Of a DNA stretch of 46,576 bases, positions 666 to 40,294 are shown piece after piece (positions within the stretch are counted from its first letter, which is position 1; the number at the start of each line of letters is the position of its first letter). Position numbers and translations under genes: made by a program. Origin of the DNA: Alphaproteobacteria bacterium (GTDB taxonomy: Bacteria; Pseudomonadota; Alphaproteobacteria; SHVV01); the NCBI GenBank assembly GCA_009694095.1, contig SHVV01000005.1:1-46576 (forward strand), read 5' to 3'. Under the pieces are notes generated by a model. The model was given only the letters and a program-made list of their open reading frames with translations, was not told the origin of the DNA and ran no database searches.

Positions 666-842
666 CGCGCACACTAGGCGCTTCGACGGACGTTAGGTAT
701 CGGCTGGAGCCTGCGGTCGGGCAGGGGTATTCTCGGAGATCGGTGACGCTGGGTCCGCGTCTCTTCGGCCCGATCTAACGGTCGATTTGACGCCGGTCCT
801 AGTTTGGAACGACGATGGGATCGAAAAAGGCGAGCGGTGACA

Positions 843-2032: not shown

Positions 2033-2743
2033 CTACCCCGTCCGTCGCACCGCTGCCGCGCCGGTTTCGATCAAGGCGATCGTTTCGGCCGCGCTCCGCA
2101 CGTCGCCGAAATAGCGCAGCATGGTCGAGAGCCCGGCGACGTGATCGACGTCGGAGTGCGACGCGTTGGCGTCGGCGATCATGATGACTCGAAAGCCCAG
2201 CATTGCTGCATCGCGCGCGCTCGACTCGCAGCAGACGTTGGTCGCGGTGCCGGCGATCAGCACGGTGCCGATGCCCTGGCCGCGTAAGAAAGTCTCGATG
2301 TCGGAGGCGCCCTGAATGAACGCGCTCGGCCGGCACTTATTGACGATGCGATCGCCGCCGCGAACGTCGAGTGCTGGGTAGAGCGCGTGCAGTGGATGGC
2401 CTTCGCTCACCGCCGCGTGGGCCCGCTCGCGCCCAGCGGGAGCGAGAAAGTTCTCGAAGAAGAGTTCGAAATACTGTGCCGTGCCTTTCTTTCCTTGCGT
2501 CGCCTGGACCCACACCACCCGGCCGGCGGCCGAGCGAAGCGCCGCCGCGACCCGGTTGATGGCAGGAACAATCGCGCGGGCCGCAGGCACCTCGAACGGC
2601 GCCCCTTCGGCGACGAAAGCGTTTTGCATGTCGATCACGACGAGCGCCGTCGCCGCCGGATCGAGCGCCGTGAAGACGTGGCGCCGGTCGCGCAATTGCG
2701 TGACGCGCTCGACGTATTCCTCGGAAAGATCAGCTTGGGCCAT
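2033..2743 (-). CDS. Isochorismatase-family cysteine hydrolase
   Basis: The 236-residue protein has the isochorismatase-like fold signatures. The catalytic Asp lies in VVIDMQNAF near residue 38, and the nucleophilic Cys lies in the NVCCESSARDA segment, followed by a typical strand (FRVIMIADAN). The family includes N-carbamoylsarcosine amidase, maleamate amidohydrolase and ureidoacrylate hydrolase, all of which cleave C-N bonds; the exact substrate cannot be read. The ATG has an AAGG-type ribosome site and overlaps the end of the upstream DMT transporter gene by 14 nt, so the two are translated together. With the amidase two genes upstream this suggests an amide or urea-derivative degradation operon. 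Confidence 0.83.
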   Translation of the reverse strand: MAQADLSEEYVERVTQLRDRRHVFTALDPAATALVVIDMQNAFVAEGAPFEVPAARAIVPAINRVAAALRSAAGRVVWVQATQGKKGTAQYFELFFENFLAPAGRERAHAAVSEGHPLHALYPALDVRGGDRIVNKCRPSAFIQGASDIETFLRGQGIGTVLIAGTATNVCCESSARDAAMLGFRVIMIADANASHSDVDHVAGLSTMLRYFGDVRSAAETIALIETGAAAVRRTG

Positions 2744-3743
2744 GGCTCACCTTCTCGGTCAATGATAGCGCCGCTGGCGGCGACGGCATAGTTGGCGATT
2801 CTCTCGAGCGCACGCGATTGGCGAGGAAAACGCCGATCAAGATCAGCCCTAATCCCACACCATGATAAACCGCGAGCGTTTCACCGATCGTCAACCAGGC
2901 GGCGATCGCAGTGAACGGCGGCTGGAGGTAGTTGAACATCGCCGCGCGCGGCGCGCCGATCCGATTGATGCCGCTGATCATGAACGAGAGTGCGAGGATC
3001 GACCCGAACACCGCCATGTACAACAGAGTGCCGACCGCGGCTCCAGACACAGTCAACCTCTGGCCGCCCCACGCCGCTTCGGCGAGATAGAGCGGCAGCG
3101 TGCCGAGGACAGCGAACACGGCGAGCACCTCGAACATCACGAACGGCGGCAACGCGCCGGCCATGTTCCGAATCAAGATCGCGTAAAGACCCCAGCCGGC
3201 GATGGCCAGAACGATGAAGAGATCGCCGATCACGATATCGAGCCCGAGCAGAGCGGCCGGACTGCCGCGCGCGACGATGACGATAGCGCCCGATGCCGCT
3301 GCGATCAGCCCAACGCTTTGCAGGGTGCTAATCCGCTCGCGCAGGAGCAGGCGCGCGAACAACACGACGAACGCCGGTTGCGCGGCGGTGATCAAGGCGC
3401 CATTGGTCGCGGTCGTCGTGTGCAGCCCGAGGAAGAACAGGGTCTGTCCGATTGTCGTCTGCAGCGTCGCCGCGGCAAACAATGCCCGCCAGTGCCGTGC
3501 GACGATGGCGCGGTGCACGACCAGCGAACGAGCAACGAACGGCGCCAGGATCACGGCGGCAGCGAGGTAGCGCCAGAACGAGAACGCAGCCGGCGGAATG
3601 TCGTCGCGCATGACCCGCGAGAGAACGTTCGAAATCGAGTAAAACACCATGGTCGCGGTCAGGCTGGCATACGACATCCACACCGCGTTACCAGCGCGGG
3701 CCCAACGATCGCCGCCGCCTTCCTGACTCACCAACCGCGCCAC
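2730..3743 (-). CDS. EamA/DMT-family transporter
   Basis: The roughly 337-residue protein is strongly hydrophobic with about ten membrane segments arranged as two EamA repeats, the usual drug/metabolite transporter architecture (for example GLHTTTATNGALITAAQPAFVVLF in the first half and ISGINRIGAPRAAMFNYLQP in the second). Such proteins usually export amino acids or metabolites from the inner membrane. The start at GTG 3743 lies 3 nt after the amidase stop; an internal ATG (MSYASLTATM, about 22 residues in) is an alternative because no good ribosome site is seen at either. It sits between an amidase and a cysteine hydrolase in one operon, so its substrate may be related to their products. Confidence 0.85.
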   Translation of the reverse strand: MARLVSQEGGGDRWARAGNAVWMSYASLTATMVFYSISNVLSRVMRDDIPPAAFSFWRYLAAAVILAPFVARSLVVHRAIVARHWRALFAAATLQTTIGQTLFFLGLHTTTATNGALITAAQPAFVVLFARLLLRERISTLQSVGLIAAASGAIVIVARGSPAALLGLDIVIGDLFIVLAIAGWGLYAILIRNMAGALPPFVMFEVLAVFAVLGTLPLYLAEAAWGGQRLTVSGAAVGTLLYMAVFGSILALSFMISGINRIGAPRAAMFNYLQPPFTAIAAWLTIGETLAVYHGVGLGLILIGVFLANRVRSRESPTMPSPPAALSLTEKVSHGPS

Positions 3744-3746
3744 ATC

Positions 3747-5261
3747 TCAGCGCTCGCGCCAGTCGCGCACCTGCTCGAACGCGAACGCGGCTCTAAACAG
3801 GGCCGTCTCCTCGAACGCTCGCGCCACCAGCATGAGGCCGATCGGCAAGCCAGCCGATAGGCCGCACGGCAGCGTAAGCGCCGGATGGTGTGTGATGTTG
3901 AAGGGCGCCGTATTGGTCGATTGTTCCGACGTGCGTTCGATCTGCAGCGCGATCGGCGCGTCCGCCGGAGGCATGGGTTGCGCCTTCATCGGCGCGGTCG
4001 GCATCAGCAGCAGATCGTGACGCGAGAGCACCGCGTCATAGGCCGCGCGCAACCGGCGCGATAGATTCATCGCTTTGCCATAGAATCGGCCGCCGTAGTG
4101 CTTCGACACATAGTCTCCGAGCAGAACGCGCATCTTGAGGCTGTGCGGAAAAGACGGGGCGTAGCGGCGCCAATCGCGGAGTCGATCGTTGAGCGCCGGC
4201 AAGAACAAGCCTTCGTGATTGGTGCCGAACCCGCCGCCTAAAAACATGTTGGCATAGTAGCCCTCGAGTGCGATCGACGCCCAAATCGACTTGGCGTCGC
4301 GGTGGATCGGGATCGAAACCGACTCGACCCTGGCGCCGAGTTCGGCAAACGCGGCGGCGGCGGCGCGTACCTTGGCATCGACATCGGTTTCGGAGTTGGG
4401 CCATCCGAAGCCTTCTTCGAGCACCGCGATGCGCAAGCCCCGGCAGCCCTCGCGCAACGAGTCGCAGTAAGGCCTCACCTCGTCGTCGCGCTGGCGCGGG
4501 TCGATGCCGTCGACACCGGCTACCGCTTCGAGCAGCAACGCATTGTCGGCCACCGTCCGCGTCATCGGTCCGGTGTGGTCGACCGTGAATTCGCTCGACA
4601 TGATCCCGGTGTAGGGAACGAGTCCGTAAGTCGGTTTGAGGCCGACGATACCGCAATAGGCGGCGGGAACGCGGATCGACCCCGCTTGGTCGCCGCCCAT
4701 CGCCATGTCGACCTCGCCGCGCGCGACCAAGGCCGCGCAACCCGACGACGAACCACCGGCCGAATAGCCGCGTTTGTAGGGGTTGTGCACCGGACCGGTC
4801 GCGGCCGTGTGGCTAGCGCCGGAATAGGAGAAGTACTCGCAGACCGCTTTGCCGGCGATGGTGCCACCGGCATCGAGAATGCGGCTCACGATCGTTGCAT
4901 CGACCGCGGGCACGAACCCTTCGAGCACATCGGAGCCGTTCGCCATAGGCAGCCCAGCGACGGCGATCGTATCCTTGAGGACAACGCTCTTGCCCGCGAG
5001 CTTGCCATCCGCCGATCCGCGGATCATCGACTTAACCGCCCACGCGCCAAATTCGTTTTCCGCCCCCGCGGGCCGGTAGCCCGGCGTACGCGGACAACGC
5101 ACCGGCGGGGTTTCATCGCTCATCCGTTCGACGGTATCGAAGGCCGTCAGCAACCGGTCGATCGCGACGCCGTAGGCCGAGACCTCGGCGTCGCTAGCGC
5201 TAAGGCCGAGCTCTTGAGAAGCGGCCGTCAGCTCTTCCGTGCTCGGGCGTCGAACCACCAT
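3747..5261 (-). CDS. Amidase signature family enzyme, enantioselective/nitrile-pathway type
   Basis: The 504-residue protein has the amidase signature. With the ATG at 5261 the Ser-cisSer-Lys triad falls at K96 (VVLKDTIAVAG), S171 (AGGSSSG) and S195 (GGDQAGSIRVP). From memory these are the positions in the Rhodococcus nitrile-pathway amidase, which supports this start over the in-frame upstream ATG at 5345. The region after the signature (GLKPTYGLVPYTG, DHTGPMTRTV, DGIDPRQ) and the C-terminal NTAPFNITHHPALTLPCG also resemble that group. It hydrolyses carboxamides to acids and ammonia. The start codon is 2 nt after the aldo-keto reductase stop, so the genes are tightly coupled. No nitrile hydratase is seen in the window. 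Confidence 0.9.
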   Translation of the reverse strand: MVVRRPSTEELTAASQELGLSASDAEVSAYGVAIDRLLTAFDTVERMSDETPPVRCPRTPGYRPAGAENEFGAWAVKSMIRGSADGKLAGKSVVLKDTIAVAGLPMANGSDVLEGFVPAVDATIVSRILDAGGTIAGKAVCEYFSYSGASHTAATGPVHNPYKRGYSAGGSSSGCAALVARGEVDMAMGGDQAGSIRVPAAYCGIVGLKPTYGLVPYTGIMSSEFTVDHTGPMTRTVADNALLLEAVAGVDGIDPRQRDDEVRPYCDSLREGCRGLRIAVLEEGFGWPNSETDVDAKVRAAAAAFAELGARVESVSIPIHRDAKSIWASIALEGYYANMFLGGGFGTNHEGLFLPALNDRLRDWRRYAPSFPHSLKMRVLLGDYVSKHYGGRFYGKAMNLSRRLRAAYDAVLSRHDLLLMPTAPMKAQPMPPADAPIALQIERTSEQSTNTAPFNITHHPALTLPCGLSAGLPIGLMLVARAFEETALFRAAFAFEQVRDWRER

Positions 5262-5263
5262 CG

Positions 5264-6241
5264 TCAGACCGACCGTCCGACGGCGCGATCGATCCGCGCG
5301 ATCAGCTCGGTTGAAAGTTTGCCAGCGGATTCCGCCGCGATGCACTCGTCGAGCTCGGCTCGATTCTTGACGCCAAGAACGACCGAATCGACGCCCGGGA
5401 TCGATAGCACGTAACGATGCGCGAGCGCTGCTGGACGCTCGCCGAGTTCGCGCGCGAGCGCGCGGAACGGGGCGGCGCGGCGGTAGTCGGCCATGTCCGG
5501 ATGATCATCGGGGATCGGCCGATCGAACGCATCGGTCAGGGCGCCGGCCTGAACGGCGCGAATGCCGAGCACGCCCACTTTGTTGGCGACCGCCGTCGTC
5601 AGCAGCCGACGCGGTTCGGCCGGTTCGGTAAAACGTTTCAGACCACCCGCCGAGCCGAGCAAGTTGGAAATGATCTGCGCCGCCGCCGGCTTCGGCGTAT
5701 CGTCGAGCGCACGGACGATCGAGTCGGGTAAGCCGATTCCGGTGATCCCCCAGGCACCAATCAGCCCCTCGCTGACGAGTTCCGCCAGCACCGGGCGAAG
5801 ATGATCGGCGTAGACGCTCCACGCCGTCGGCGGACGCGGACTATTGGGCCCCCCTGGTAGCGCGTAGCCGTCCGCCGCGATCATCGAATGCAGAAAGAAC
5901 AAATCGACCCGCTTGAGCCGCATGGCCGCCAAACTCGCCGTGAGCGATGCGCGGATCGCTGGCTCGACCGCTTCGGGCGCCGGGCTCCCGAGGTAGCACT
6001 TCGTCGTCACGCGGACGCCGCTCGGCAAGCGCCCCTGGAACGCCTCGCCGATCACTCGCTCGGCCTCGCCGTTGCCATAGAGCGGCGCCATGTCGAGAAG
6101 CGTGATGCCCTTATCGACCGCGGCACGCGCGGTAGCGACGCATTCCTCGCGCGTCGTCGCTCCCCATAGCTGCCCTAATCCACCGCCGCCCAGCGTCAAT
6201 GCGCTCACCGGCCACAGCGTTCCGAGTCTTGTCGTTCGCAT
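5264..6241 (-). CDS. Aldo/keto reductase
   Basis: The 325-residue protein is a TIM-barrel aldo/keto reductase. The catalytic tetrad is visible: D50 and Y55 in LLDMAPLYGNGEAE, K81 in TTKCYLG and H118 in FFLHSM. A C-terminal nicotinamide-phosphate-contacting segment (SIPGVDSVVLGVKNRAELDE) is typical of the L-fucose/D-threo-aldose dehydrogenase and pyridoxal dehydrogenase-like subgroup. It is likely NAD(P)-dependent and cytoplasmic. It is the first gene of an apparent four-gene minus-strand operon with amidase, transporter and cysteine hydrolase. Substrate unknown. Confidence 0.88.
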   Translation of the reverse strand: MRTTRLGTLWPVSALTLGGGGLGQLWGATTREECVATARAAVDKGITLLDMAPLYGNGEAERVIGEAFQGRLPSGVRVTTKCYLGSPAPEAVEPAIRASLTASLAAMRLKRVDLFFLHSMIAADGYALPGGPNSPRPPTAWSVYADHLRPVLAELVSEGLIGAWGITGIGLPDSIVRALDDTPKPAAAQIISNLLGSAGGLKRFTEPAEPRRLLTTAVANKVGVLGIRAVQAGALTDAFDRPIPDDHPDMADYRRAAPFRALARELGERPAALAHRYVLSIPGVDSVVLGVKNRAELDECIAAESAGKLSTELIARIDRAVGRSV

Positions 6242-18562: not shown

Positions 18563-18620
18563 GGTGGGCCACGATCGGCGCTCGCATCAAGTTGATCGCC
18601 CGATCGATCGCACCACGATT
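18563..18620. repeat. Imperfect intergenic repeat, copy A
   Basis: This stretch starts with GGTGGGCCA and contains GGCGCTCGCATCAAGTTGAT then CGATCGATCGCACCA. It aligns with copies B (18873) and C (19804), but lacks the shared GAGCCGACCATGACCGA end. It lies in the 528-nt gap between the GST gene and the AT-rich membrane gene, where I see no gene. Confidence 0.7.
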
Positions 18621-18987: not shown

Positions 18988-19719
18988 GTGCCCCGGCAAA
19001 CTTTTTCTCTACGCTGTACTCTCGATTTTTTTTGCCGCCGATGTCTTAAGTTGCCGTTTACTTCAACTATCATTTTCTTAATTTTCGCGTTCAGAAAACA
19101 CAGCAATTGGGGATCGCGATTTTTTCACCGCGTATTCGTGCTCTGGTCGCTGTCTTTTGTTTTTTGTCTCGCCGCGCTGGTTTTGATTCGAAATTTCGGC
19201 GTCCCAGCGCTGCTGGGTGAGGTATTGGATCAGACCGCCAAACTCTTGGCCTATGCGATATCGACCTTTGCGCGCTTGAGCTCTGTTTCTTCGAGTTTCG
19301 AGAACGATTGGTCAAACAACGCGGTTTCTCGAGCCTATGTCATCGTTGCTGTTCTCAGCCTATTTTCACTCGTTGTATATGCGCGCTATTGGGGTTCCGG
19401 CGTCGAAGCGGGGATCGCGAATTTTCGGAAGAGAGGCCTACGAAGAAGCCTCTACGTACTCATGGCGGCGCCTCGATCGCTTTTGATGTTCTTTGGCATA
19501 CTCCTGGTGTCCACGTCCTCCGACGCCGCAACGTATTGCTTGGGCGATTTACTTCGATACAGTCCAAGAACGATCGCAATTTCTTCCTTGCTAAAATTCA
19601 GCAAATTTGGCCTTGGCGTGGCGTCGTTTTGGTTCGTTTTGTTTTTGTCTGCACTTTCGACGGCGATAATAATTGAATTGTTCACGAACCCTCACGCCAC
19701 CGACGACAATAAGACCTAG
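18988..19719 (+). CDS. Hypothetical AT-rich membrane protein
   Basis: An open frame of up to 243 codons whose base composition and codon use differ sharply from its neighbours (many TTT, ATT, TCT and GAA codons). Hydrophobic segments occur near residues 48-66 (VLWSLSFVFCLAALVLIRNF), 115-133 (AYVIVAVLSLFSLVVYARY), 158-175 (LYVLMAAPRSLLMFFGILLV) and 205-230 (KFGLGVASFWFVLFLSAL), so it is probably a four-TM inner-membrane protein. The GTG at 18988 has no ribosome site and the true start may be downstream. I recognise no family. It is flanked by repeat copies B and C, which suggests horizontal insertion. Confidence 0.5.
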   Translation: MPRQTFSLRCTLDFFCRRCLKLPFTSTIIFLIFAFRKHSNWGSRFFHRVFVLWSLSFVFCLAALVLIRNFGVPALLGEVLDQTAKLLAYAISTFARLSSVSSSFENDWSNNAVSRAYVIVAVLSLFSLVVYARYWGSGVEAGIANFRKRGLRRSLYVLMAAPRSLLMFFGILLVSTSSDAATYCLGDLLRYSPRTIAISSLLKFSKFGLGVASFWFVLFLSALSTAIIIELFTNPHATDDNKT

Positions 19720-19803: not shown

Positions 19804-19880
19804 GGTGGGCCAAAGCTGGGCGCTCGCATAGAGTCGATGCCCGACCGATCGCACCACCGAATGAGCCGACCATGACCGAA
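19804..19880. repeat. Imperfect intergenic repeat, copy C, containing the start codon of the acyl-CoA synthetase gene
   Basis: GGTGGGCCA, GGCGCTCGCAT, GATCGCACCACCGA and TGAGCCGACCATGACCGA are shared with copies A or B. The ATG at 19872 is the start of the downstream gene, so the repeat includes the probable leader and translation start region. Confidence 0.7.
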
Positions 19881-21572
19881 ACCGACGCTGCCCGTTTCGC
19901 CGCCGCGCGCGCCTTCATGCTGCGGCACCGTACCGACTACGACGGCGCATGCCGCGACTTCCGCTGGCCCCAACTCACGCGCTTCAACTGGGCGCTCGAT
20001 CATTTCGACGCGCTGGCGCGGGGCAACGAGCGCCCGGCGCTCTGGATCGTGAATGAAGACGGCGGCGAGACCAAGATTTCGTTCGCCGCCATGGCGCTAC
20101 GCACCAATCGCGTCGCCAATTTCCTGCGCACGCAGGGCGTCAAGCGTGGCGATCGCGTACTTCTGATGTTGGGAAACGTCGCGCCGCTTTGGGAGTGTCT
20201 GTTGGCGGCGATGAAGCTGGGCGCGGTGGTCATCCCGGCGACGACGCTTCTCACCCACAACGATCTGCTCGATCGCTTCGCGCGCGGCCGCCTCCGCCAC
20301 GTCATCACCGACGCCAAACACGCCCAGAAATTCGCCGCCATCCCCGGCGACTATACCCGGATCGCGGTCGGCGGCGCCGCGGCCGGCTGGCAGAGTTACG
20401 GCGCGGCCGATGCCGCCTCGGCCGCGTTCGTGCCCGACGGCCCGACGCAAGCCGCCGATCCGATGCTGCTCTATTTCACCTCGGGCACGACAGCAAAACC
20501 CAAGCTCGTGCTGCACAGCCACCAGAGCTACCCGGTCGGCCATCTCTCGACCATGTTCTGGCTCGGGCTGCGGCCCGGCGACGTTCACTTGAATATCTCC
20601 TCGCCCGGCTGGGCCAAGCACGCCTGGAGCTGCTTCTTCGCGCCGTGGAACGCGGGCGCGACCGTGTTCATGGTCAATCAGGCGCGCTTCAACGCCAAGG
20701 CACTTTTGGACATCATCGTTCTCTGCGGCGTCACCACGTTCTGCGCCCCGCCCACGGTGTGGCGCCTCCTCATTCAAGAAGATTTAGCGCACTGGAAGGT
20801 AAAGCTCACCGATCTGGTCGGCGCCGGCGAGCCGCTGAACCCAGAGGTGATCGACCGCGTCAAGGCGGCGTGGGGCTTGACCATCCGCGACGGCTACGGC
20901 CAGACCGAGACCACGGCGCAGATCGGCAACGCGCCGGGCCAGCCAGTCAAGGCCGGTTCGATGGGCCGGCCGCTCCCGGGCTACCGCATGAAACTGCTCG
21001 ATCCGGACGGCAACGAGACGGACGAAGGCGAGGTCGCGTTGCTGCTCGATCCGAGGCCCTTGGGGCTCATGATGGGGTACCAGGCCGACGACGGCCGGGT
21101 GCAGCCGATCGAAGGCGCGGTCTATCGCACCGGTGACATCGTCGCCCGCGACCAGGACGGCTACCTCACCTACGTCGGCCGGGCCGACGATGTGTTCAAG
21201 GCCTCCGACTATCGCATTAGCCCGTTCGAGCTCGAGAGCGCGCTGATCGAGCACCCGGCGGTGGTCGAGGCGGCGGTCGTACCCTCGCCCGATCCGATGC
21301 GCCTCGCGGTGCCCAAAGCATTCGTGACACTCGCCCCCGGACACGCGCCCGACCGCGCCACCGCGCTCGCGATCTTCCGCCACGTGCGGGCGAGTTTGTC
21401 GCCGTTCAAGCGCGTGCGGCGCTTGGAGTTTGCCGAGCTGCCGAAAACGATCTCAGGCAAAATCCGCCGCGTCGATCTGCGCAAAGCGGAAGCCGCGAAA
21501 CGCGCGGGCGCGGCGGCGAGCACGCGCGGCGCGGGCGAATATTGGGAAGAGGATTTTCCGGAGTTGGGGTGA
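19872..21572 (+). CDS. AMP-dependent acyl-CoA synthetase/ligase
   Basis: The 566-residue enzyme is of the ANL superfamily and resembles acetyl/medium-chain acyl-CoA synthetases. Core motifs are A3 LLYFTSGTTAKPK near residue 200, A5 DGYGQTETT near 338, A7 YRTGD near 418, A8 GYLTYVGRADDVFKASDYRISPFELE near 430, and the catalytic lysine in A10 PKTISGKIRR near 528. It activates a carboxylic acid to its CoA thioester through an acyl-adenylate. The substrate is unknown. It is followed 230 nt later by two triple-RidA genes and a molybdenum hydroxylase subunit on the same strand. The translation start lacks a good ribosome site and lies inside repeat copy C. Confidence 0.92.
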   Translation: MTETDAARFAAARAFMLRHRTDYDGACRDFRWPQLTRFNWALDHFDALARGNERPALWIVNEDGGETKISFAAMALRTNRVANFLRTQGVKRGDRVLLMLGNVAPLWECLLAAMKLGAVVIPATTLLTHNDLLDRFARGRLRHVITDAKHAQKFAAIPGDYTRIAVGGAAAGWQSYGAADAASAAFVPDGPTQAADPMLLYFTSGTTAKPKLVLHSHQSYPVGHLSTMFWLGLRPGDVHLNISSPGWAKHAWSCFFAPWNAGATVFMVNQARFNAKALLDIIVLCGVTTFCAPPTVWRLLIQEDLAHWKVKLTDLVGAGEPLNPEVIDRVKAAWGLTIRDGYGQTETTAQIGNAPGQPVKAGSMGRPLPGYRMKLLDPDGNETDEGEVALLLDPRPLGLMMGYQADDGRVQPIEGAVYRTGDIVARDQDGYLTYVGRADDVFKASDYRISPFELESALIEHPAVVEAAVVPSPDPMRLAVPKAFVTLAPGHAPDRATALAIFRHVRASLSPFKRVRRLEFAELPKTISGKIRRVDLRKAEAAKRAGAAASTRGAGEYWEEDFPELG

Positions 21573-21802: not shown

Positions 21803-23044
21803 ATGGCTGCACCGCGTAAGGATTTCCGACTGACCGGCAAACTGAGCGAACCGATCAGCCACTACAGCGATGCCGTGCTGTGCGGCGACTACCTCTTCAT
21901 GTCGGGCGCCGGTCCGTTCGACGCCGACCTAAAGCTGATCGGCTTGGGCGAAGTCGATCGCCAAACCGAGGCGACGCTCGGCAACATCGCGAAAATGCTC
22001 GAAGCCGCCGGCATGTCGTTCAATGACGTGGTCTACTGGCGCATCCTGCTCGACAACGTGCGCGACCAGAAAAAGGTCGACGCCGCGATCAAGCGCGTCA
22101 CCGGCAAGGCCAAGCCGGCGACCACCTACATCGGCGTCGAGGCGCTGGCGCTGCCCGGCATGCTGATCGAGATCGAGGGCGTCGCCTACAAGCCCTCGGC
22201 CGGCGCCGGCCCGCGCCGCGAGATCATGGTCGATGGCGTCTGCGATCTCGGGCTCCATTACAGCCACGTCTGCAAGGGCGGCGACCTAGCCTGGTATTCC
22301 GGCGTCAACGCCAGCCCGGTCGATGCGATGGGGCGCGTCTTGAACGTCGGCGATCCGGCGCTGCAGGCCAACCAGTCCTACGAGAACCTGGCCAAGATGT
22401 GCGCCGCCGCCGGCCAAGAGGTCGCCGATGTCGCTAAGGTGACGGTCTTCATCGAGAACGTCCGCCACAACCAACTCCTGAGGCCGGCGCGCGCGCGCTA
22501 CCACGGCAAGGGCCGCCCGACGAGCGCGATGATCGGCATCAAGGAACTCTGCATCCCCGGCCAGCACCACCAGATCGAACCGGTCGGCTACCGGGCGACC
22601 GGCTCGAATCCGCCGCGCAAGGAATGGGTGGTCGCCGGCTACCGCAAGCCGATCAGCCACTACACCGACGCCGTCCAGTGCGGCGACATTCTTTATGTCT
22701 CCGGCGCCGGCGGGCTCGAAGCCAACTTGAAGCCGGTGCACGACCGCGACGTCGTCAAGCAATGCGAAAAGACCTTCGAGCACATCGACACCATGCTGAA
22801 GGTCGCGGGCTACGGCTTCGACGACGTGGTCAAGGTCACGGTATTCCACACTCAGGTGGTCGAACGGCCGCTGATCAATCCAGTGCGCCAGCGCATCTTC
22901 AAGAAGTCGCTGCCGGCCAGCACTCTGTTCGGCGTGCGCGGGCTAGCGATCGAGCCGCTGCGCCTCGAGATCGAGTCGATCGCCTACAAGCCCGGCATGG
23001 GCGAGGCCAATCGCAACAAGCCGGCGACCGGTTCGTACGACTGA
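21803..23044 (+). CDS. Three-domain RidA/YjgF fusion protein, first copy
   Basis: The 413-residue protein is built of three RidA (YjgF/YER057c/UK114) domains in tandem, about residues 1-133, 137-265 and 272-397. Each repeats the order HY-x6-CGD or KGGD (ISHYSDAVLCGDYLFMSG, LHYSHVCKGGDLAWYSG, ISHYTDAVQCGDILYVSG), an N(V)R or Q(V)V loop, and an EIE/QIE strand near its end. Normal RidA is a single ~130-residue domain forming a homotrimer with active sites at interfaces, so this is predicted to be a covalent pseudotrimer. The residue equivalent to E. coli RidA Arg105 is T107, S241 and S373 here. An AGGGAGGG ribosome site precedes the ATG. Substrate unknown. Confidence 0.88.
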   Translation: MAAPRKDFRLTGKLSEPISHYSDAVLCGDYLFMSGAGPFDADLKLIGLGEVDRQTEATLGNIAKMLEAAGMSFNDVVYWRILLDNVRDQKKVDAAIKRVTGKAKPATTYIGVEALALPGMLIEIEGVAYKPSAGAGPRREIMVDGVCDLGLHYSHVCKGGDLAWYSGVNASPVDAMGRVLNVGDPALQANQSYENLAKMCAAAGQEVADVAKVTVFIENVRHNQLLRPARARYHGKGRPTSAMIGIKELCIPGQHHQIEPVGYRATGSNPPRKEWVVAGYRKPISHYTDAVQCGDILYVSGAGGLEANLKPVHDRDVVKQCEKTFEHIDTMLKVAGYGFDDVVKVTVFHTQVVERPLINPVRQRIFKKSLPASTLFGVRGLAIEPLRLEIESIAYKPGMGEANRNKPATGSYD

Positions 23045-23057
23045 GGAATGAGAAACA

Positions 23058-23126
23058 CCCTCCGCTCGCGGGAGGGGGCAGGTGGAGGGGTCGCCCCTCT
23101 CCCTACCCTCCCCCACAAGGGGGAGG
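23058..23126. repeat. GC-rich intergenic palindromes between the two RidA genes
   Basis: Three hairpins follow one another: CCCTCC with GGAGGG (23058-23063, 23071-23076), AGGGG with CCCCT around TCG (23086-23098), and CCTCCCCC with GGGGGAGG around ACAA (23107-23126). It fills most of the 106-nt gap and resembles the palindromes at 24367, 37946, 38806 and 40300. Confidence 0.65.
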
Positions 23127-23150
23127 CAGACAACAACAGGGAGAACCACC

Positions 23151-24356
23151 ATGACCGCAGCGGCGCGCCGGGAGATCCGGCTCAAGGAATTGATGCAGCC
23201 TATCAGCCACTACACCGACGCAGTGCTGTGCGGCGACTTTCTCTTCATGTCGGGCGCCGCGCCGTTCGATCGAGAGGGCAACCTGATCGCGCCGGGCGAC
23301 GTCGCCAAGCAATGCGAGGCGATCTGCAAGAATATCGAGGCGATGCTCTCGGCCGCGGATATGTCATTCAAGGACATCGTCTACTTCAAGGTGCTGATGG
23401 AAGAAGTTTACGACGGTCCCAAGATCAACCCGATTCGCAAGGCCTTCCACGGCGATTCGAAACCGGGCTCGACCCGGGTCGGCGTCGGCCACTTGGCGAT
23501 CCCCGGCATGTTGCTCGAGGTCGATTGCGTCGCCTACAAGCCGTTTTCGGGCGGTCCCGCCAAGCGCGAGATTCGCTGCGCCAATCTGTTCGAGCCGCCC
23601 AGCCACTACACCGACGTCGTGGTGTGCGGCGATTTCGCGTTCCTCTCCGGCACCGGCCCGATCGGCGCGGACGGCAAGTCAGTCCATTTAGGCGATCCCG
23701 AGCGCCAGGCGCACGTGACGATGGAAAACATGCAGGTCATGCTCGATGCCTGCGGCATGGGCTTCGAGGACATCGCCAAGGTCGTCTGCTACCTTGAGAA
23801 CGTGAACGACCGCGCCAAGATCAACGTCGCGCGCAAGAAATTCTTCGGCAAGAGCAAGCCGGTCTCGACGCTCTTTGGCGTGCGCCGCCTGGCGATCCCG
23901 GGCATGAACCACGAGATCGAGGCGATCACCTACAAGCCGAGCCGGGCGGGAGCGCCCAAACGGCGCGAGATTCGCGTGCCCGGCATGCATGGGCCGATCT
24001 CGCACTACACCGACGCCGTGAGTTGCGGCGACTTTCTGTTCGTCTCCGGCCAGGGGCCGTTCAACTCCAAGCTCAAGCTGGTCGGCGACGACGACATCAC
24101 CAAGCAGGCGGTGTGCGTGCACGAAAATCTGAAGCGCATCATGAAGGCGGGCGGCATGGGCTTCGCCGATGTCGCCAAAACCACCGTCTACATGGACAAC
24201 TGCGACGAACGCCAGGCGTTGAACAAGGTGCGCAAGAAATACTGGGGCAAGGCCAAGCCGGCGAGCACCCTCTTCGGCGCCAACCGCCTGGCGCTGCCCG
24301 GCATGAAGCTTGAGATCGAGACCATCTGCTACAAGCCGGGCGCCGGGACGAAGTAA
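23151..24356 (+). CDS. Three-domain RidA/YjgF fusion protein, second copy
   Basis: A 401-residue paralogue of the preceding protein with the same three-domain plan (about residues 1-132, 136-263 and 270-396). Each domain has the HYTD-x3-CGDF core (for example ISHYTDAVLCGDFLFMSG and ISHYTDAVSCGDFLFVSG) and ends with a KP-x-ST-LFG-style segment and an EIE-type strand. The Arg105 position is Ser in all three (S107, S239, S372). The ATG at 23151 has an AGGGAG ribosome site; an in-frame upstream ATG at 23082 would translate the palindromic repeat and is unlikely. The two proteins may form a heteromeric complex or act in sequence. Function unknown. Confidence 0.88.
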   Translation: MTAAARREIRLKELMQPISHYTDAVLCGDFLFMSGAAPFDREGNLIAPGDVAKQCEAICKNIEAMLSAADMSFKDIVYFKVLMEEVYDGPKINPIRKAFHGDSKPGSTRVGVGHLAIPGMLLEVDCVAYKPFSGGPAKREIRCANLFEPPSHYTDVVVCGDFAFLSGTGPIGADGKSVHLGDPERQAHVTMENMQVMLDACGMGFEDIAKVVCYLENVNDRAKINVARKKFFGKSKPVSTLFGVRRLAIPGMNHEIEAITYKPSRAGAPKRREIRVPGMHGPISHYTDAVSCGDFLFVSGQGPFNSKLKLVGDDDITKQAVCVHENLKRIMKAGGMGFADVAKTTVYMDNCDERQALNKVRKKYWGKAKPASTLFGANRLALPGMKLEIETICYKPGAGTK

Positions 24357-24366
24357 CCCCCTCCCG

Positions 24367-24392
24367 ACCTCCCCCTGCGGGCAGGGGGAGGT
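24367..24392. repeat. Perfect 11-bp GC-rich hairpin
   Basis: ACCTCCCCCTG (24367-24377) pairs with CAGGGGGAGGT (24382-24392) around the loop CGGG. It sits 11 nt after the second RidA gene and before the molybdenum hydroxylase gene. No T run follows, so it is more likely a repeat or mRNA-stability hairpin than a terminator. Confidence 0.7.
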
Positions 24393-24447
24393 CGCCGCCC
24401 CGCACCGGGTAGGGGTTCGCGGAGATAAACAACGGAACGCGTCCATC

Positions 24448-26742
24448 ATGTACAAATTCGGCGTCGGACAAGCGCTCACCCGGATCGAGGACAAACGCCT
24501 GCTGACCGGACAGGGTCACTTTACCGACGACGAGATCGAAGCCGGCCAAGTCTGCGCTTACTTCCTGCGATCGCCGCACGCGCACGCGGCGATCGACCGG
24601 ATCGACGTCGCGGCCGCACGCGCTCTTCCAGGCGTGCTCGGGGTCTTCACGGCGGCCGACGCGGACGCCGCCGGCTTGGGTACGATCAAGCCGGTGATCA
24701 AGACCAAGAACCGCGACGGTTCGAACAACGTCGAGCCGGACTGGCCGCTCCTAGCGCGCGGGAGCGTCCGCCATGTCGGCAATTTGGTGGCAATGGTGGT
24801 GGCCACGAACGAAGCGCAGGCGCGCGACGCGGCCGACGCGATCGTCGTCGGCTACCGGGCGCTGCCGGCCGCGGTCGAGCTATCGGCGGCCGTGGCGCCG
24901 GGCGCGCCGCAAGTCTGGCCTGAGGCGCCCGGCAACATCTGCTTCGACTGGATTCACGGCGACGAGGCCAAGACCCAAGCAGCGTTCGCGTCGGGCGCAC
25001 ACCGGGTCGAGGTCGAACTCGTCAACAACCGCGTGGTATCGAACCCGATCGAGCCGCGCGCCGCGCTCGTGCGCCATGACGCGGCGGCCGATCGCTACAC
25101 GCTTCACGTCGCGAGCCAGGGCGTCCACAATATCCGCGACCGCATGGCCGGCGCGCTCGGCGTTAAGCCGGAGCAGATCCGGGTGCTCACCGGCGATGTC
25201 GGCGGCGGCTTCGGCACCAAGATTTTCGTTTATCCCGAATACGTCCTCGCCTGCTGGGCGGCGAAGAAGCTCGGCCGCCCAATCAAGTGGACTAGCGACC
25301 GCAGCCATGCGTTCGTCACCGACGTTCACGGCCGCGACAACCTGGCCAAGGGCGAACTCGCGCTCGACCGCGAGGGCAAGATCCTCGCCATGCGGGCTAC
25401 GATCCTGGCTAACATGGGCGCCTATCTCTCGAACTTCGCTCCGCTCATCCCGGCCGGATCGCCCGCCGGCATGTTCACCGGCGTCTACGCGATCCCGGCC
25501 GCGTTCATCAACGTCAAGGCGGTCTTCACCCACACCGTGCCGGTCGATGCCTATCGCGGCGCCGGTCGGCCGGAGGCGTCGTACCTGATCGAGCGCCTGG
25601 TCGATGCCGCCGCCCGCCAGATCGGGCTCGATCCTGGCGAAATCCGGCGCCGCAATTTCATTCCGCCGGCGGCGTTTCCGTTTACCAATTCGCTCGGCAA
25701 GAAATTCGATTCCGGCGAGTTCGCCCGCAACATGGATCAGGCGCGCTCGACCGTCGATTGGGCCGGGCTCGCGCGGCGCAAGGCGCAAGCCAAGGCGCGC
25801 GGCAAGCTCTTGGGGCTCGGGCTCTCCTATTACATCGAAGTGTGCGCCTTCGCCGGAACCGAGATCGCCCACGCCGAGTTCGAGGGCGAAACGGTCGCGG
25901 TCTGGGTCGGCACCCAGAACAACGGCCAGGGCCACGAGACGTCCTTCGCCCAGGTCGCGGCCGAACGCTTCGGCATTCCGATCGAGCGCATCCGTATCCG
26001 GTTCGGCGATTCCGACCGCATCCCGAAGGGCGGCGGCACCGGCGGCTCGCGCTCGATGGCGCTGGGCGGCCACGCCGTCGGCGACGCGGCCGTCGCAATC
26101 ATCGACAAAGCCAAGGCGGTGGCGGGCGAGTTGCTCGAAGTCGCAACTGCCGATCTGGCCTACGCCGAGGGCGCGTTCACCGTGGTCGGCACCGACCGGC
26201 GCGTCGATCTTTTTCAAGTCGCGGCCGAAGCGACCCGGCGCGGCGCGGCGCTGGTGGCCGACGTCACCTACAAGCAGACCGACGCCACGTTCCCCAACGG
26301 CTGCCACGTCGCCGAAGTCGAGATCGACCCCGAGACCGGCGCGCTCCGGGTGGTACGCTACGTCGCGGTCGATGACTTCGGCCGCGTCGTCAATCCGTTG
26401 CTGCTGGCCGGCCAAGTGCACGGCGGCATCGCTCAAGGTCTAGGTCAGGCGCTGATCGAGCACGCCGTCTACGACCATGCCTCAGGGCAGTTGTTGAGCG
26501 GCTCGATGATGGACTATGCGATGCCGATGGCGGAGCTCTTGCCGCCGATCGAGTTCGCGTGGAACGAAGTGCCGTGCCGGACCAACCCGCTCGGGGTTAA
26601 AGGCGCCGGCGAGGCGGGTTCAATCGGCGCGCCGGCCGCGGTCATCAACGCGATACTCGATGCGCTCGCACCTTACGGGGTCACCGCGATCGACATGCCG
26701 GCGACGCCGGAGAAAATATGGCGCGCATTGGGGCGACGCTGA
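24448..26742 (+). CDS. Xanthine dehydrogenase/CO dehydrogenase-family molybdenum-binding subunit (CoxL-like, form II)
   Basis: The 764-residue protein is a molybdopterin cytosine dinucleotide-binding large subunit. It contains the N-terminal a/b hammerhead region (LTGQGHFTDDE, LRSPHAHAAI), GDVGGGFGTK, the active-site loop AYRGAGR, QNNGQGHETSF, GGGTGGSRSM and the catalytic Glu in VKGAGEAGSIGAP. The AYRGAGR loop is that of form II enzymes rather than the AYxCSFR loop of true CO dehydrogenase, so CO oxidation is not expected. The [2Fe-2S] and FAD subunits that normally accompany it are absent next door. It probably hydroxylates a heterocycle or aldehyde. The ATG at 24448 gives a family-typical N-terminus; the open frame extends further upstream through repeat sequence. 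Confidence 0.9.
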   Translation: MYKFGVGQALTRIEDKRLLTGQGHFTDDEIEAGQVCAYFLRSPHAHAAIDRIDVAAARALPGVLGVFTAADADAAGLGTIKPVIKTKNRDGSNNVEPDWPLLARGSVRHVGNLVAMVVATNEAQARDAADAIVVGYRALPAAVELSAAVAPGAPQVWPEAPGNICFDWIHGDEAKTQAAFASGAHRVEVELVNNRVVSNPIEPRAALVRHDAAADRYTLHVASQGVHNIRDRMAGALGVKPEQIRVLTGDVGGGFGTKIFVYPEYVLACWAAKKLGRPIKWTSDRSHAFVTDVHGRDNLAKGELALDREGKILAMRATILANMGAYLSNFAPLIPAGSPAGMFTGVYAIPAAFINVKAVFTHTVPVDAYRGAGRPEASYLIERLVDAAARQIGLDPGEIRRRNFIPPAAFPFTNSLGKKFDSGEFARNMDQARSTVDWAGLARRKAQAKARGKLLGLGLSYYIEVCAFAGTEIAHAEFEGETVAVWVGTQNNGQGHETSFAQVAAERFGIPIERIRIRFGDSDRIPKGGGTGGSRSMALGGHAVGDAAVAIIDKAKAVAGELLEVATADLAYAEGAFTVVGTDRRVDLFQVAAEATRRGAALVADVTYKQTDATFPNGCHVAEVEIDPETGALRVVRYVAVDDFGRVVNPLLLAGQVHGGIAQGLGQALIEHAVYDHASGQLLSGSMMDYAMPMAELLPPIEFAWNEVPCRTNPLGVKGAGEAGSIGAPAAVINAILDALAPYGVTAIDMPATPEKIWRALGRR

Positions 26743-37000: not shown

Positions 37001-37849
37001 CTACTCGTCGGCGATCGGGTTGCTTAGGAGGCCGACCTTGGAGATTTCGACCTCGACTGTATCGCCAGCCTTCATCCAGAGCGGCGGCTTGCGCGCCGCG
37101 CCGACGCCCGAGGGCGTCCCGGTCGAGATCACGTCGCCCGGCATTAGCTCGGTGAATCCGGAGATGTACTCGATGCAGTGCGCGACCGTGTAGGTCATGT
37201 CGCCGGTATTGGTCTTCTGCACCACCTTGCCGTTCAGTCGCGTCTCGAGTTCGAGGTTCTGCACATCGCCCACTTCTTCGGGCGTGACCAGATAGGGCCC
37301 AAACCCGCCGGTCTTGGGAAAGTTCTTGCCTGGCGTGAACTGCGTCGTGTGGCGCTGCCAGTCGCGCACGCTGCCGTCGTTATAGCAGGCGTAGCCGGCG
37401 ACGTAATCGAGCGCGTTGGCGCGCGGGATATAGCGCCCGGTGCGGCCGATCACCAACGCAAGCTCGCCCTCGAAATCGAGTCGCTCCGAAACCTTGGGCC
37501 GGACGATCGGCTGGTTGTGGCCAACCTGGGCCGAGGTGAAGCGCGTGAAGATCGAGGGATGCTCGGTCTTGTCGCGCCCAGTCTCGATCCGGTGCGCCTC
37601 GTAGTTCAAGCCGACCAACAGAATTTTGTCCGGGTCCCACACCACCGGCAAGAACGTCACGTCCTTGATCTTGGTGTCAGCCGCCTCGCCGGCCGCGGCC
37701 GTCGCCAGCGCATGCAGCGCCCCGGCCTTGAGCACGGCGCACAGAGTCGGATATTTTTGGCTCAGTTTGTTGCTGACGGTCACGAGGCCATCGCCTCGGA
37801 CCACCCCGTACGCCGGCCGGCCACCCGACAGATAACTCGCTACTTTCAT
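37001..37849 (-). CDS. Fumarylacetoacetate hydrolase family protein
   Basis: The 282-residue protein has the FAH catalytic domain from about residue 75. Metal ligands are visible as E127 and E129 (DFEGELALVIG) and D158 (CYNDGSVRDWQ), with the conserved GKNFPKTGGFGPYLV, and the C-terminal GDVISTGTPSGVG. The family includes 2-hydroxyhepta-2,4-diene-1,7-dioate isomerase, fumarylpyruvate hydrolase and acylpyruvases; sequence length and motifs fit these single-domain enzymes. It probably acts on a ring-cleavage product of an aromatic compound. It lies divergent from the alpha/beta hydrolase gene. Confidence 0.9.
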   Translation of the reverse strand: MKVASYLSGGRPAYGVVRGDGLVTVSNKLSQKYPTLCAVLKAGALHALATAAAGEAADTKIKDVTFLPVVWDPDKILLVGLNYEAHRIETGRDKTEHPSIFTRFTSAQVGHNQPIVRPKVSERLDFEGELALVIGRTGRYIPRANALDYVAGYACYNDGSVRDWQRHTTQFTPGKNFPKTGGFGPYLVTPEEVGDVQNLELETRLNGKVVQKTNTGDMTYTVAHCIEYISGFTELMPGDVISTGTPSGVGAARKPPLWMKAGDTVEVEISKVGLLSNPIADE

Positions 37850-37945
37850 GTGACGTTTCCCCCTCGCGACGAAGCTGGAATTGGGTTATAGCCGCTTCAC
37901 CACGCCGTCGCCAATTGCAGCATTCTCCCGGTCGTAGGGGGTAGT

Positions 37946-37962
37946 GGAGGGGTCGACCCTCC
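37946..37962. repeat. Short GC-rich palindrome upstream of the alpha/beta hydrolase gene
   Basis: GGAGGG (37946-37951) and CCCTCC (37957-37962) flank GTCGA. It lies 15 nt before the ATG at 37978 and may also influence translation. Confidence 0.55.
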
Positions 37963-37977
37963 TTAGGAAAGAACATC

Positions 37978-38781
37978 ATGCCGATCGCCAAGATCAACAA
38001 TCATGCCATGTATTACGAGGTTCACGGTTCGGGCCCGCCGCTCGTTTGCTCCGGCGGCTGGGGAACGTTCTGCCACGGCGAGGATAAGCACATCCCGCGC
38101 GGCCTGACCGATCGCTATTCGGTCGTGATCTTCGACCACCGCGGCATCGGCGCATCGACTGACGATCCCAAGGTGCCGTCGTCGATGCGGCTTTACGCCG
38201 ACGACATCGTCGGTCTGATGGCGCATCTCGGTCACGAAAAGTTCCACATGCTCGGCATGGTCGGCATGGGCGCCTGCGTCGGCCAGGAGATCGCGATCAA
38301 CTATCCCGACAAGATCCGCAGCCTCGTCAACATGGGCTGTTGGGCTTACGCCGACGAGCACTTCAAGGGCCAAATGGAGATGTTCACGACGCTGCACGCC
38401 GAGGTCGGGTTTTACGCCTTTCAGCTTTGCGTCGTGCTGCACTCCTTCACGCCCGAATACTTCAACGATAAAAAATCCGTTCTGCTCGGGCCGAACGGCG
38501 GCTGGAAGGACCTGATCGGCAAGGTCGCCGCGCACAAGCGCTTCGTCAACGCCTGCATCACCCATCACGCGATCGATCGCTTGGACAAAGTCACCTGCCC
38601 GACCCTGGTGATCCACGCCGGTCGCGATGCCGTCACGTCGCCACGCCTCACAGTGCCGGTCGAAAAAGCGATCCGCGGCGCCGAGGGGGTGATGTTCGAC
38701 GACATGGCCCACGTCGTCGCCGGCAAAGAGCAGAAGATCCGCTTCTCGAACCTGCTCACGGACTTTTTCGGCAAGCATTGA
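37978..38781 (+). CDS. Alpha/beta-fold hydrolase with non-canonical nucleophile region
   Basis: The 267-residue protein follows the alpha/beta hydrolase pattern: YEVHGSGPPLV with oxyanion region GGWGT, FDHRGIGAS, and a C-terminal VIHAGRDAVTSP (acid) and DMAHVVAG (histidine). The nucleophile elbow, normally GxSxG, reads LGMVGMGACVGQEIA: either Gly replaces Ser, or the Cys in GACVG is the nucleophile. The acid and histidine appear retained, so activity is possible with cysteine. It lies between an FAH-family gene and a CoA-transferase gene, in a catabolic context. Substrate unknown. Confidence 0.85.
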   Translation: MPIAKINNHAMYYEVHGSGPPLVCSGGWGTFCHGEDKHIPRGLTDRYSVVIFDHRGIGASTDDPKVPSSMRLYADDIVGLMAHLGHEKFHMLGMVGMGACVGQEIAINYPDKIRSLVNMGCWAYADEHFKGQMEMFTTLHAEVGFYAFQLCVVLHSFTPEYFNDKKSVLLGPNGGWKDLIGKVAAHKRFVNACITHHAIDRLDKVTCPTLVIHAGRDAVTSPRLTVPVEKAIRGAEGVMFDDMAHVVAGKEQKIRFSNLLTDFFGKH

Positions 38782-38805
38782 GCGGGCGTACCACTACTTG
38801 ACTGG

Positions 38806-38892
38806 CCTTCCCTATCGGCGCACGGGGAGGGTAGCGAGTAGGTCGTGACCGGCCCCGCCCCTACTCCCTCCCGCTGATGCCCTGGGGAGGGG
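38806..38892. repeat. GC-rich palindromic intergenic stretch
   Basis: It contains GAGTAG with CTACTC (38836-38841 and 38861-38866) and CCCTCCC with GGGGAGGGG near 38866-38892. It lies between the hydrolase and CoA-transferase genes and resembles the other GC-rich palindromes of the window. Confidence 0.5.
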
Positions 38893-38923
38893 CGAAAAAA
38901 TGACTGTGGATACGGAGGAGACG

Positions 38924-40294
38924 ATGGCGCGAATGAAAAAGAAGCGTGCGGCGAAACGAGCGGCCAAGCGCGGTCCGACCCGTGCGGCCAAGTCAGTGAA
39001 GAAAACATCTGGCCAAAAATCGAGCGCAAAGCGCGTCGCGGCGCGTGCGCCTCGAGTAACGCCGCTCGCCGCCGCCCGCGCGCGCGCCCAAGCCTCCAGC
39101 CGCCAAGGCCCGCTCGCGGGCTTGCGCGTGATCGAGATCGGCCAGATGCTGGCCGGACCCTACGTCGGCAGCCGCCTAGCCGATTTCGGTGCTGAGGTGA
39201 TCAAGGTCGAGGCGCCCGACCGCAAGGACCCTATGCGAGTCTGGGGCGAGAACAAAGTGAACGGCACCGGGCTCTGGTGGTCGTGGCTTTCGCGCAACAA
39301 GAAGTGCGTGACGGCCAATCTGCGCGACCCGCGCGGCGTCGATCTGATCCGCAAGCTCTGCGCCACGTCCGACGCGTTGGTCGAGAACTTCCGCCCCGGC
39401 ACGCTCGAGGAATGGGGCATCGGCCCGGCCGAGTTGCACAAGATCAACCCGCGCCTCGTGATCTGCCGCGTCTCGGGCTGGGGCCAGGATGGACCCTATT
39501 CGCAGCGCCCCGGCTTCGCGTCCGTCGGCGAGGCGATGGGCGGCTTCCGCCACGTTAACGGCTTTCCCGGCGAGCCGCCGGTGCGCATGGGCATTTCGCT
39601 CGGCGACTCGCTCACCGGCATGTTCGCCACCCAGGGCGTGCTGATGGCGCTCTATTGGCGCGACGCCATGGGCGGCGGCAAGGGCCAGGTGATCGACGCC
39701 TCGATCATCGACTCCTGCTTCGCCTTCATGGAAAGCACCGTCCCCGACTACGTCAAGTTCGGCACCGTGCGCGGGCCCTCAGGGACGGGCCTGGCCGGCG
39801 TCGTGCCGTCCAATATCTTCAAATCGAAGGATGGCGTCTGGGTGGTGATCGCCGCCAACGTCGATCCGATGTACCAGCGCTTCTGCAAGGCGATGGAGCG
39901 GCCCGATCTGGCGCAGTACGCGACCCACGATCTGCGGGCGCAGAACCGCGCCACGATCGAGCAGGCGATCACCGCTTGGGCCGGTGCCCGCACCGCAGCC
40001 GAGATCGACACCATCTTAAACGACAACAACGTCGTCGTCGGCCCGATCTATTCGGCGGCCGAGATGGTCAAGGACCCGCACTTCCAGGCCCGCGGCATGA
40101 TCCAACCGGCGCACGACGACTTCTACGGCGACATCGTCGTGCCGGCGATGACGCCGCGCTTCTCGGAAACCATGGGCCGGATGGAGTGGCTGGGCCCGCC
40201 GGCAATGGGTGCCCACAACCAGGACGTCTATGGCCGGATCTTAGGGATGAGCGCCGATCAGTTGGGCGGGTTCAAGAAGGCGGGAGTGATTTAG
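38924..40294 (+). CDS. CaiB/BaiF-type (class III) CoA-transferase with Lys/Ala-rich N-terminal tail
   Basis: The 456-residue protein has a basic tail of about 60 residues (KKKRAAKRAAKRG, RAAKSVKKTSGQKSSAKR) followed by the class III CoA-transferase fold: LAGLRVIEIGQMLAGPY, DFGAEVIKVEAP, VENFRPGTLEEWG, and the catalytic Asp at D228 (GISLGDSLTG). It moves CoA between carboxylic acids, typically from succinyl-CoA or acetyl-CoA to an unusual acid. The tail resembles histone H1-like proteins and is not part of the normal fold. The ATG at 38924 has a GGAGGAG site; an in-frame ATG at 38900 is an alternative. The true acceptor is unknown. Confidence 0.92.
   Translation: MARMKKKRAAKRAAKRGPTRAAKSVKKTSGQKSSAKRVAARAPRVTPLAAARARAQASSRQGPLAGLRVIEIGQMLAGPYVGSRLADFGAEVIKVEAPDRKDPMRVWGENKVNGTGLWWSWLSRNKKCVTANLRDPRGVDLIRKLCATSDALVENFRPGTLEEWGIGPAELHKINPRLVICRVSGWGQDGPYSQRPGFASVGEAMGGFRHVNGFPGEPPVRMGISLGDSLTGMFATQGVLMALYWRDAMGGGKGQVIDASIIDSCFAFMESTVPDYVKFGTVRGPSGTGLAGVVPSNIFKSKDGVWVVIAANVDPMYQRFCKAMERPDLAQYATHDLRAQNRATIEQAITAWAGARTAAEIDTILNDNNVVVGPIYSAAEMVKDPHFQARGMIQPAHDDFYGDIVVPAMTPRFSETMGRMEWLGPPAMGAHNQDVYGRILGMSADQLGGFKKAGVI

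Follow-up and report, generated by a model that had tools for sequence, protein, structure and literature searches.

Two adjacent triple-domain Rid proteins without Arg105, and an arginine at position 91 in most of their domains

Proteins A and B and the loss of Arg105

The stretch of DNA analysed here (the window, 46,576 bases from an alphaproteobacterial genome that is 63% complete) contains two adjacent genes whose products we call A and B (Table 1). Both proteins match the profile PF01042 (Ribonuc_L-PSP), and this match, together with the RidA fold described below, places them in the Rid (YjgF/YER057c/UK114) superfamily. Each chain consists of three tandem RidA domains, A1 to A3 and B1 to B3, an architecture known as 3x-RidA. 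Protein A starts at the ATG at 21803 and protein B at the ATG at 23151, and the residue numbering is valid from these starts. The mechanically called open reading frame of B begins earlier, at a GTG at 23082; the ATG at 23151 is backed by an MTAAARREIRL start that is common to both orthologues of the protein.

Table 1. Proteins A and B, their six RidA domains and the genes that flank them
Feature	Position	Strand	Description
Protein A	21803..23044	+	413 residues; RidA domains A1 (1-135), A2 (136-268) and A3 (269-404); PF01042 in three stretches, E 2.7e-58
Domain A1	21803..22207	+	T107 at 105, Ile at 91, Asp at 88; arginine at none of 84/88/91/105; identical in both orthologues
Domain A2	22208..22606	+	S241 at 105, Arg88, Arg91, Gln for Glu120, 2-residue insertion, GGD for CGD; identical in both orthologues
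Domain A3	22607..23014	+	S373 at 105, Arg84, Asn88, Arg91, Glu120
Protein B	23151..24356	+	401 residues; RidA domains B1 (1-135), B2 (136-268) and B3 (269-401); PF01042 in three stretches, E 1.5e-66
Domain B1	23151..23555	+	S107 at 105, Asn88, Arg91
Domain B2	23556..23954	+	S239 at 105, Arg84, Asn88, Arg91
Domain B3	23955..24353	+	S372 at 105, Arg84, Asn88, Arg91; single-domain AlphaFold2 model with RidA fold
Molybdenum hydroxylase large subunit (xanthine dehydrogenase/CoxL family)	24448..26742	+	MoCoBD_1, MoCoBD_2, Ald_Xan_dh_C; ATG 24448, 92 bp after B
AMP-forming acyl-CoA ligase	19872..21572	+	AMP-binding, E 2.2e-59; 230 bp upstream of A

RidA is a homotrimer, and each chain of A or B would be expected to fold as a covalent pseudo-trimer with three outer inter-domain clefts. 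An AlphaFold2 model of domain B3 alone, built from 18 sequences, has a predicted local distance difference test score (pLDDT) of 86.5 and a predicted template modelling score (pTM) of 0.83. Comparison of this model with RidA structures in Foldseek gave E values of ~1e-12 and query-normalised TM-scores of ~0.76-0.87 among the matches listed. The corresponding model of full-length protein B, for which only 6 sequences were available, had a pLDDT of 49.6 and a pTM of 0.49 and was not used; a search of viral contigs for extra sequences for the modelling gave no match. In carrying three tandem RidA domains on one chain, presumed to form a covalent trimer, A and B resemble the 3x-RidA proteins described by Niehaus et al. 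in 2015, such as EF_0115 of Enterococcus faecalis (PMC4433059). They differ from these in being two adjacent paralogues, and may also differ in belonging to the Ser105/Arg91 class defined below and in having lost Arg105 from all six domains. In the literature that we searched, mostly without subscription papers, nothing on 3x-RidA proteins was found beyond that study.

Positions are given throughout in the numbering of Escherichia coli RidA, the reference for our alignments, whose sequence agrees with PDB entry 1QU9 at 127/127 residues. Translation and alignment bear out the statement of the initial annotation that all six domains lack RidA Arg105: the column holds T107, S241 and S373 in A, and S107, S239 and S372 in B. 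That annotation went on to describe a uniform Ser/Thr replacement with retention of the surrounding motifs. Serine or threonine is indeed found in 6/6 domains, as is the HY motif, but uniformity is slightly overstated, A1 having a threonine and A2 being clearly divergent, and both the next Asp and the CGD motif are disrupted in A2 (HYSHV...GGD). The pocket residues of the family, named in the study of TdcF as Tyr17, Gly31, Asn56, Asn88, Pro114 and Glu120 (PMC1884159), are retained to differing extents. Tyr17 and Gly31 are present in 6/6 window domains, as are Ser30 and Pro103; Asn56 and Glu120 are each present in 5/6 (A2 has Gln for Glu120), Asn88 in 4/6 and Pro114 in 0/6. The position of E. 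coli Pro16 is occupied by histidine in all six, and A2 is the most divergent domain of the set.

The replacement by serine is not itself novel because serine has already been recorded at the arginine site in a minority of ~10% of RidA proteins by Niehaus et al., who also described the Arg-less groups Rid4-Rid7, with tryptophan in Rid4 and Rid7 (PMC4433059); Rid5 and Rid6 vary at this position. Proteins A and B resemble the serine-type minority in having serine for Arg105 while the remaining RidA fold and motifs are kept; they are distinguished from it by their triple-domain structure and by their place in a subclade with an invariant His16-Tyr17. The arginine at 105 that marks RidA and the imine deaminases Rid1-Rid3 gives way to threonine or serine in the six domains and their orthologues, and the tryptophan of Rid4 and Rid7 is likewise replaced by serine or threonine in all six. 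Scores summed over the domains of A and B reach 103.9 and 116.3 bits with the RutC profile (NCBIfam TIGR03610; cut-off 169.1 bits), and the FkbO/Hyg5 chorismatase profile (TIGR04444; cut-off 325 bits) gives 19.7 and 26.8 bits. TIGR00004 exceeds its cut-off for both proteins, though with a score summed over three domains, and the automatic label 'Rid family detoxifying hydrolase' overstates current knowledge. Judged by their sequences, A and B belong to the Rid family and to the 3x-RidA architecture, and they fall outside the Arg105 deaminase class because the arginine that defines it was looked for and is absent.

Position 91 in the Rid family

The alignment used for the family as a whole contains 196 Rid domains, of which 195 come from Proteobacterial genomes and one is E. 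coli RidA. Sampling was partly steered by similarity to the window domains, and the counts of Ser105 and Arg91 that follow are not frequencies. Where residue 105 is arginine (110 domains), position 91 is Tyr in 93, Phe in 10, Met in 4, Trp in 3 and Arg in none. Ser105, by comparison, is accompanied by Arg91 in 51/53 domains and Asp105 by Arg91 in 7/7, and the three domains with Trp105 all have Lys91. Ranked by mutual information with average product correction, the 91-105 pair stands fourth of 7260 column pairs; ranks one to three go to pairs with columns 100 and 101, which face a three-residue gap in most sequences. The pattern is also seen in a set of 60 domains ordered by their similarity to E. 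coli RidA, 47 of which have Arg105 and 7 Ser105, with Arg91 in each of these seven. Arg91 is kept through most of the deep Ser105 side of the family and never occurs on the Arg105 side. The Asp105/Arg91 domains (L069, L074, L075, L078-L080 and L085) form a subgroup with a PADT motif, and their residues would allow a direct Asp-Arg pair.

Five of the six window domains (A2, A3, B1, B2 and B3) show the combination of Ser105 with Arg91 by which we define a class in the present analysis; A1 differs, with Thr and Ile at these positions. For the initial annotation, another arginine filling the site of Arg105 would speak against its reading, and the occurrence of Arg91 in these five domains and on the Ser105 side at large does so in part. 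Arg91 may plausibly compensate for the loss of Arg105. We found no account of the 91/105 relation in the literature searched; it is the new element here and the part worth following, the absence of Arg105 alone being already known.

Published structures bear on where the side chain at 91 may lie. Asn88 of TdcF forms part of the pocket lining and is bound to Arg105 through two hydrogen bonds (PMC1884159); position 91 is three residues, or one helical turn, from Asn88. Phe147 of Arabidopsis thaliana RidA, which lines the pyruvate site (PMC4960622), aligns with position 84. Because Asn88 and Phe147 both line the ligand pocket, positions 84, 88 and 91 would share one face of helix α2, with the side chain at 91 one turn from Asn88. 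The residues matching 84, 88 and 91 fall within one helix (83-97) in the B3 model. A solved structure with the 105/91 pair is that of Pseudomonas aeruginosa PA3499 (PDB 2IG8), in which, by alignment, Ser111 of a PAST motif matches position 105 and Arg98 matches position 91. Unlike A and B, PA3499 is a single-domain protein and has no His16, and no published function for it was found in the literature searched.

Ordinary RidA activity on 2-aminoacrylate might persist despite the substitution, since the domains mostly retain Tyr17, Gly31 and Glu120, and Arg91 might in principle stand in for Arg105. The equivalent of Arg105 is regarded, however, as the residue that determines deaminase activity (PMC5619798), and Arg105-type Rid proteins are also encoded in the source genome; we therefore consider it quite unlikely that A and B act as conventional RidA enzymes.

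Conservation, origin and gene neighbourhood

Two more genomes of the genus, also assembled from metagenomes (L009/G002 and L010/G001), have orthologous A-B pairs, and their A proteins are 92-94% identical to that of the window. The six residues at the 105 site are identical in the window and both sister genomes. Ratios of nonsynonymous to synonymous substitution rates (dN/dS) among the three species are 0.065-0.10 for protein A, 0.06-0.15 for protein B and 0.05-0.21 for the single domains. Several pocket residues are gone from A1 and A2, as might be expected if the proteins were decaying or drifting as pseudoenzymes after loss of function. The low dN/dS in every domain, together with the identity of the 105-site residues across the three genomes, nevertheless excludes decay for all practical purposes, and we reject this explanation as barely credible. 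The claim of the initial annotation, that the replacement reflects a different conserved chemistry rather than decay, is borne out in its second half; a different chemistry is possible but not established.

In a tree of 65 domains, the six domains of the window fall with their orthologues into a single supported clade (97/81*), whose sister is a single-domain protein, L053, from the same genus (97/88*). Within the clade, A1 pairs with B1 (100/97*), A2 with B2 (88/86, not starred) and A3 with B3 (96/78, not starred). Domains in the same position of A and B pair with one another, and therefore triplication of a single-domain relative came first and duplication of the whole gene later. Two other triple-Rid proteins from the same class of bacteria, L050 and L051, form a separate supported clade and represent an independent triplication; the residue at the Arg105 site varies among the domains of L050 (genome G165; I/A/T) and of L051 (genome G163; L/A/S). 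Single-domain relatives with the HYTDAV motif are rare, scores of ~190 bits or more being found outside the genus in only 6/385 sampled genomes of the class, and one such relative is encoded on a Rhodococcus plasmid. In the clade with the HY motif, residue 105 is serine in 33/36 domains and threonine in 3/36, and His16 is present in 36/36. The source genome is unusually rich in Rid domains, with 19 matches in 1.88 Mb that include Arg105, Ser105 and Met105 types.

The gene for the large subunit of a molybdenum hydroxylase lies directly downstream of B, an arrangement that is also found in the sister genome L044 (84.5% identity) and in L009. A convergent gene for a short-chain dehydrogenase/reductase is kept in L044 as well, and the order reads the same in L009. 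The hydroxylase is, from this arrangement, a probable co-transcribed partner of A and B. No FAD or iron-sulphur (2Fe-2S) subunit adjoins its gene, and such subunits occur in the source genome, itself incomplete, only on contigs C64 and C79. A conserved operon that includes the acyl-CoA ligase upstream of A was considered and rejected, since the ligase is not upstream of the pair in the sister genomes L043 and L044.

The single-domain relatives lie near a Rieske oxygenase and an amidase (L045), a Rieske oxygenase and an alpha/beta hydrolase (L229), a LigB dioxygenase, FAA hydrolase, flavin monooxygenase and amidohydrolase (L047) or, for L052 on the Rhodococcus plasmid, an HpaB hydroxylase, amidohydrolase and FAA hydrolase. 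More distant His-Tyr relatives of the Ser type are found near a Rieske oxygenase (L221) and an Ldh_2 dehydrogenase (L223). The theme common to these contexts is aromatic or heteroaromatic catabolism.

Many carboxylates are ligands of RidA homologues, and non-enzymatic roles are known for several members of the family. Proteins A and B might, in the same way, serve in ligand binding, regulation or as chaperones, holding a metabolite without turnover, and the want of some classical pocket residues in A1 and A2 would fit such a role. The linkage to the molybdenum hydroxylase and the catabolic contexts of the relatives suggest instead a pathway enzyme, and the genes have no regulator or transporter as a constant neighbour; a purely binding function appears improbable.

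Several further features of the window were noted. The spacers between A and B (23060-23127) and between B and the hydroxylase (24357-24393) each carry a CCTCCCCC...GGGGGAGG palindrome, like dispersed intergenic repeats. Direct repeats at 18566/19808, 18598/19839 and 18932/19862 (74-95% identity) lie in the segment 18566-19888, and between them is an open reading frame of 243 amino acids (18988-19719) with low G+C content at third codon positions and no Pfam match. The acyl-CoA ligase gene begins within the second repeat copy, and the arrangement looks like a duplication or insertion. Other genes of catabolic type in the window (804-1985, 2033-5345 and 37001-40294) encode a Rieske oxygenase, isochorismatase, amidase, FAA hydrolase, alpha/beta hydrolase and CoA-transferase III.

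Possible role of the Ser105/Arg91 class

A change of chemistry in the stricter sense would mean that the class does not deaminate imines at all and that Ser105, with His16 or Arg91, acts in, for example, the hydrolysis or ring opening of a lactam, enol ester or cyclic imine. The HY clade shows strict conservation of Ser105 and His16, and amidases and amidohydrolases are encoded near the relatives. There is also a precedent in the cyanuric acid hydrolase/barbiturase AtzD (Toblerone fold), which is thought to derive from three concatenated YjgF-type units, each contributing a serine and an arginine, and which shows that three joined units of this kind can give a new serine-using enzyme (PMC3758960). 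The site of AtzD, with its Ser-Lys dyads and a metal site, lies however in the central barrel, whereas position 105 lies in the outer clefts (PMC3758960). Moreover, neither A nor B matches an AtzD/TrzD ring-opening amidase profile in Pfam or NCBIfam, and no catalytic triad is assignable from sequence. We regard this possibility as unlikely.

We tentatively favour a reading in which A and B, as 3x-Rid paralogues of the Ser105/Arg91 class, belong to a catabolic operon with the molybdenum hydroxylase, and in which their clefts probably act on an enamine, an imine or a related carboxylate. In most clefts Arg91 on helix α2, joined by Arg84 in A3, B2 and B3, would replace Arg105 as the anchor of the carboxylate; Tyr17, Glu120 and His16 would likewise point towards the ligand. 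The cleft would still bind an unsaturated amino- or oxo-carboxylate and may promote enamine or imine hydrolysis, in the manner of 2-aminomuconate deaminase, or a related tautomerisation. Fusion of the domains may have let the clefts specialise, A1 being without an arginine at 84, 88, 91 or 105 and A2 without Glu120; the residues of these two domains suggest that not all clefts of protein A do the same job. The proteins would then serve a catabolic step beside that of the neighbouring hydroxylase. A parallel for such a step is AmnE, a 2-aminomuconate deaminase that acts as a catabolic enamine deaminase on aromatic breakdown products (PMC6742747) and shares the Rid fold with A and B (PDB 6IZH; 28% identity, TM-score ~0.84). 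AmnE is, by contrast, a single-domain protein that forms trimers or hexamers and retains the family arginine (Arg117), which is present in neither A nor B.

A number of observations weigh against this proposal. When columns 91 and 105 are left out of the tree, a single change of state is seen for Arg105, and the 91/105 association therefore reflects one ancient split and not repeated co-evolution; with just this one change, an attempt to prove compensation statistically from independent pairs had no power. The reach of Arg91 to the site of the ligand carboxylate is a prediction, and A1 has neither Arg105 nor Arg91. No activity for any Ser105 Rid protein was found in the literature searched, and the Arg-less Rid7 protein STM1549 is without imine hydrolase activity, though it belongs to another subfamily (PMC4433059). 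Finally, the contexts of the single-domain relatives are diverse, and no single partner recurs among them.

In its widest form, the proposal would add to the Rid family another catalytic class, set apart by a deep split. The essential arginine of this class would have shifted from the strand (position 105) to the helix (position 91), as Ser105/Arg91 with the variants Asp105/Arg91 and Trp105/Lys91, and its rebuilt carboxylate pocket would have its own substrates. That pocket would have been triplicated and duplicated in the source genus, yielding six non-identical clefts that serve one pathway of catabolism linked to the molybdenum hydroxylase. We consider this possible but doubtful. Rid proteins are at present sorted into imine hydrolases and 'mysterious' ones by the single residue Arg105, a rule that would prove too simple if many of the proteins without Arg105 had Arg91 in that pocket. 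The large group labelled 'Rid family detoxifying hydrolase' would then become directly testable, with the solved structure 2IG8 as the place to begin. Proteins A and B, as one-chain trimers, would allow their three clefts to be mutated singly, which is impossible in homotrimers.

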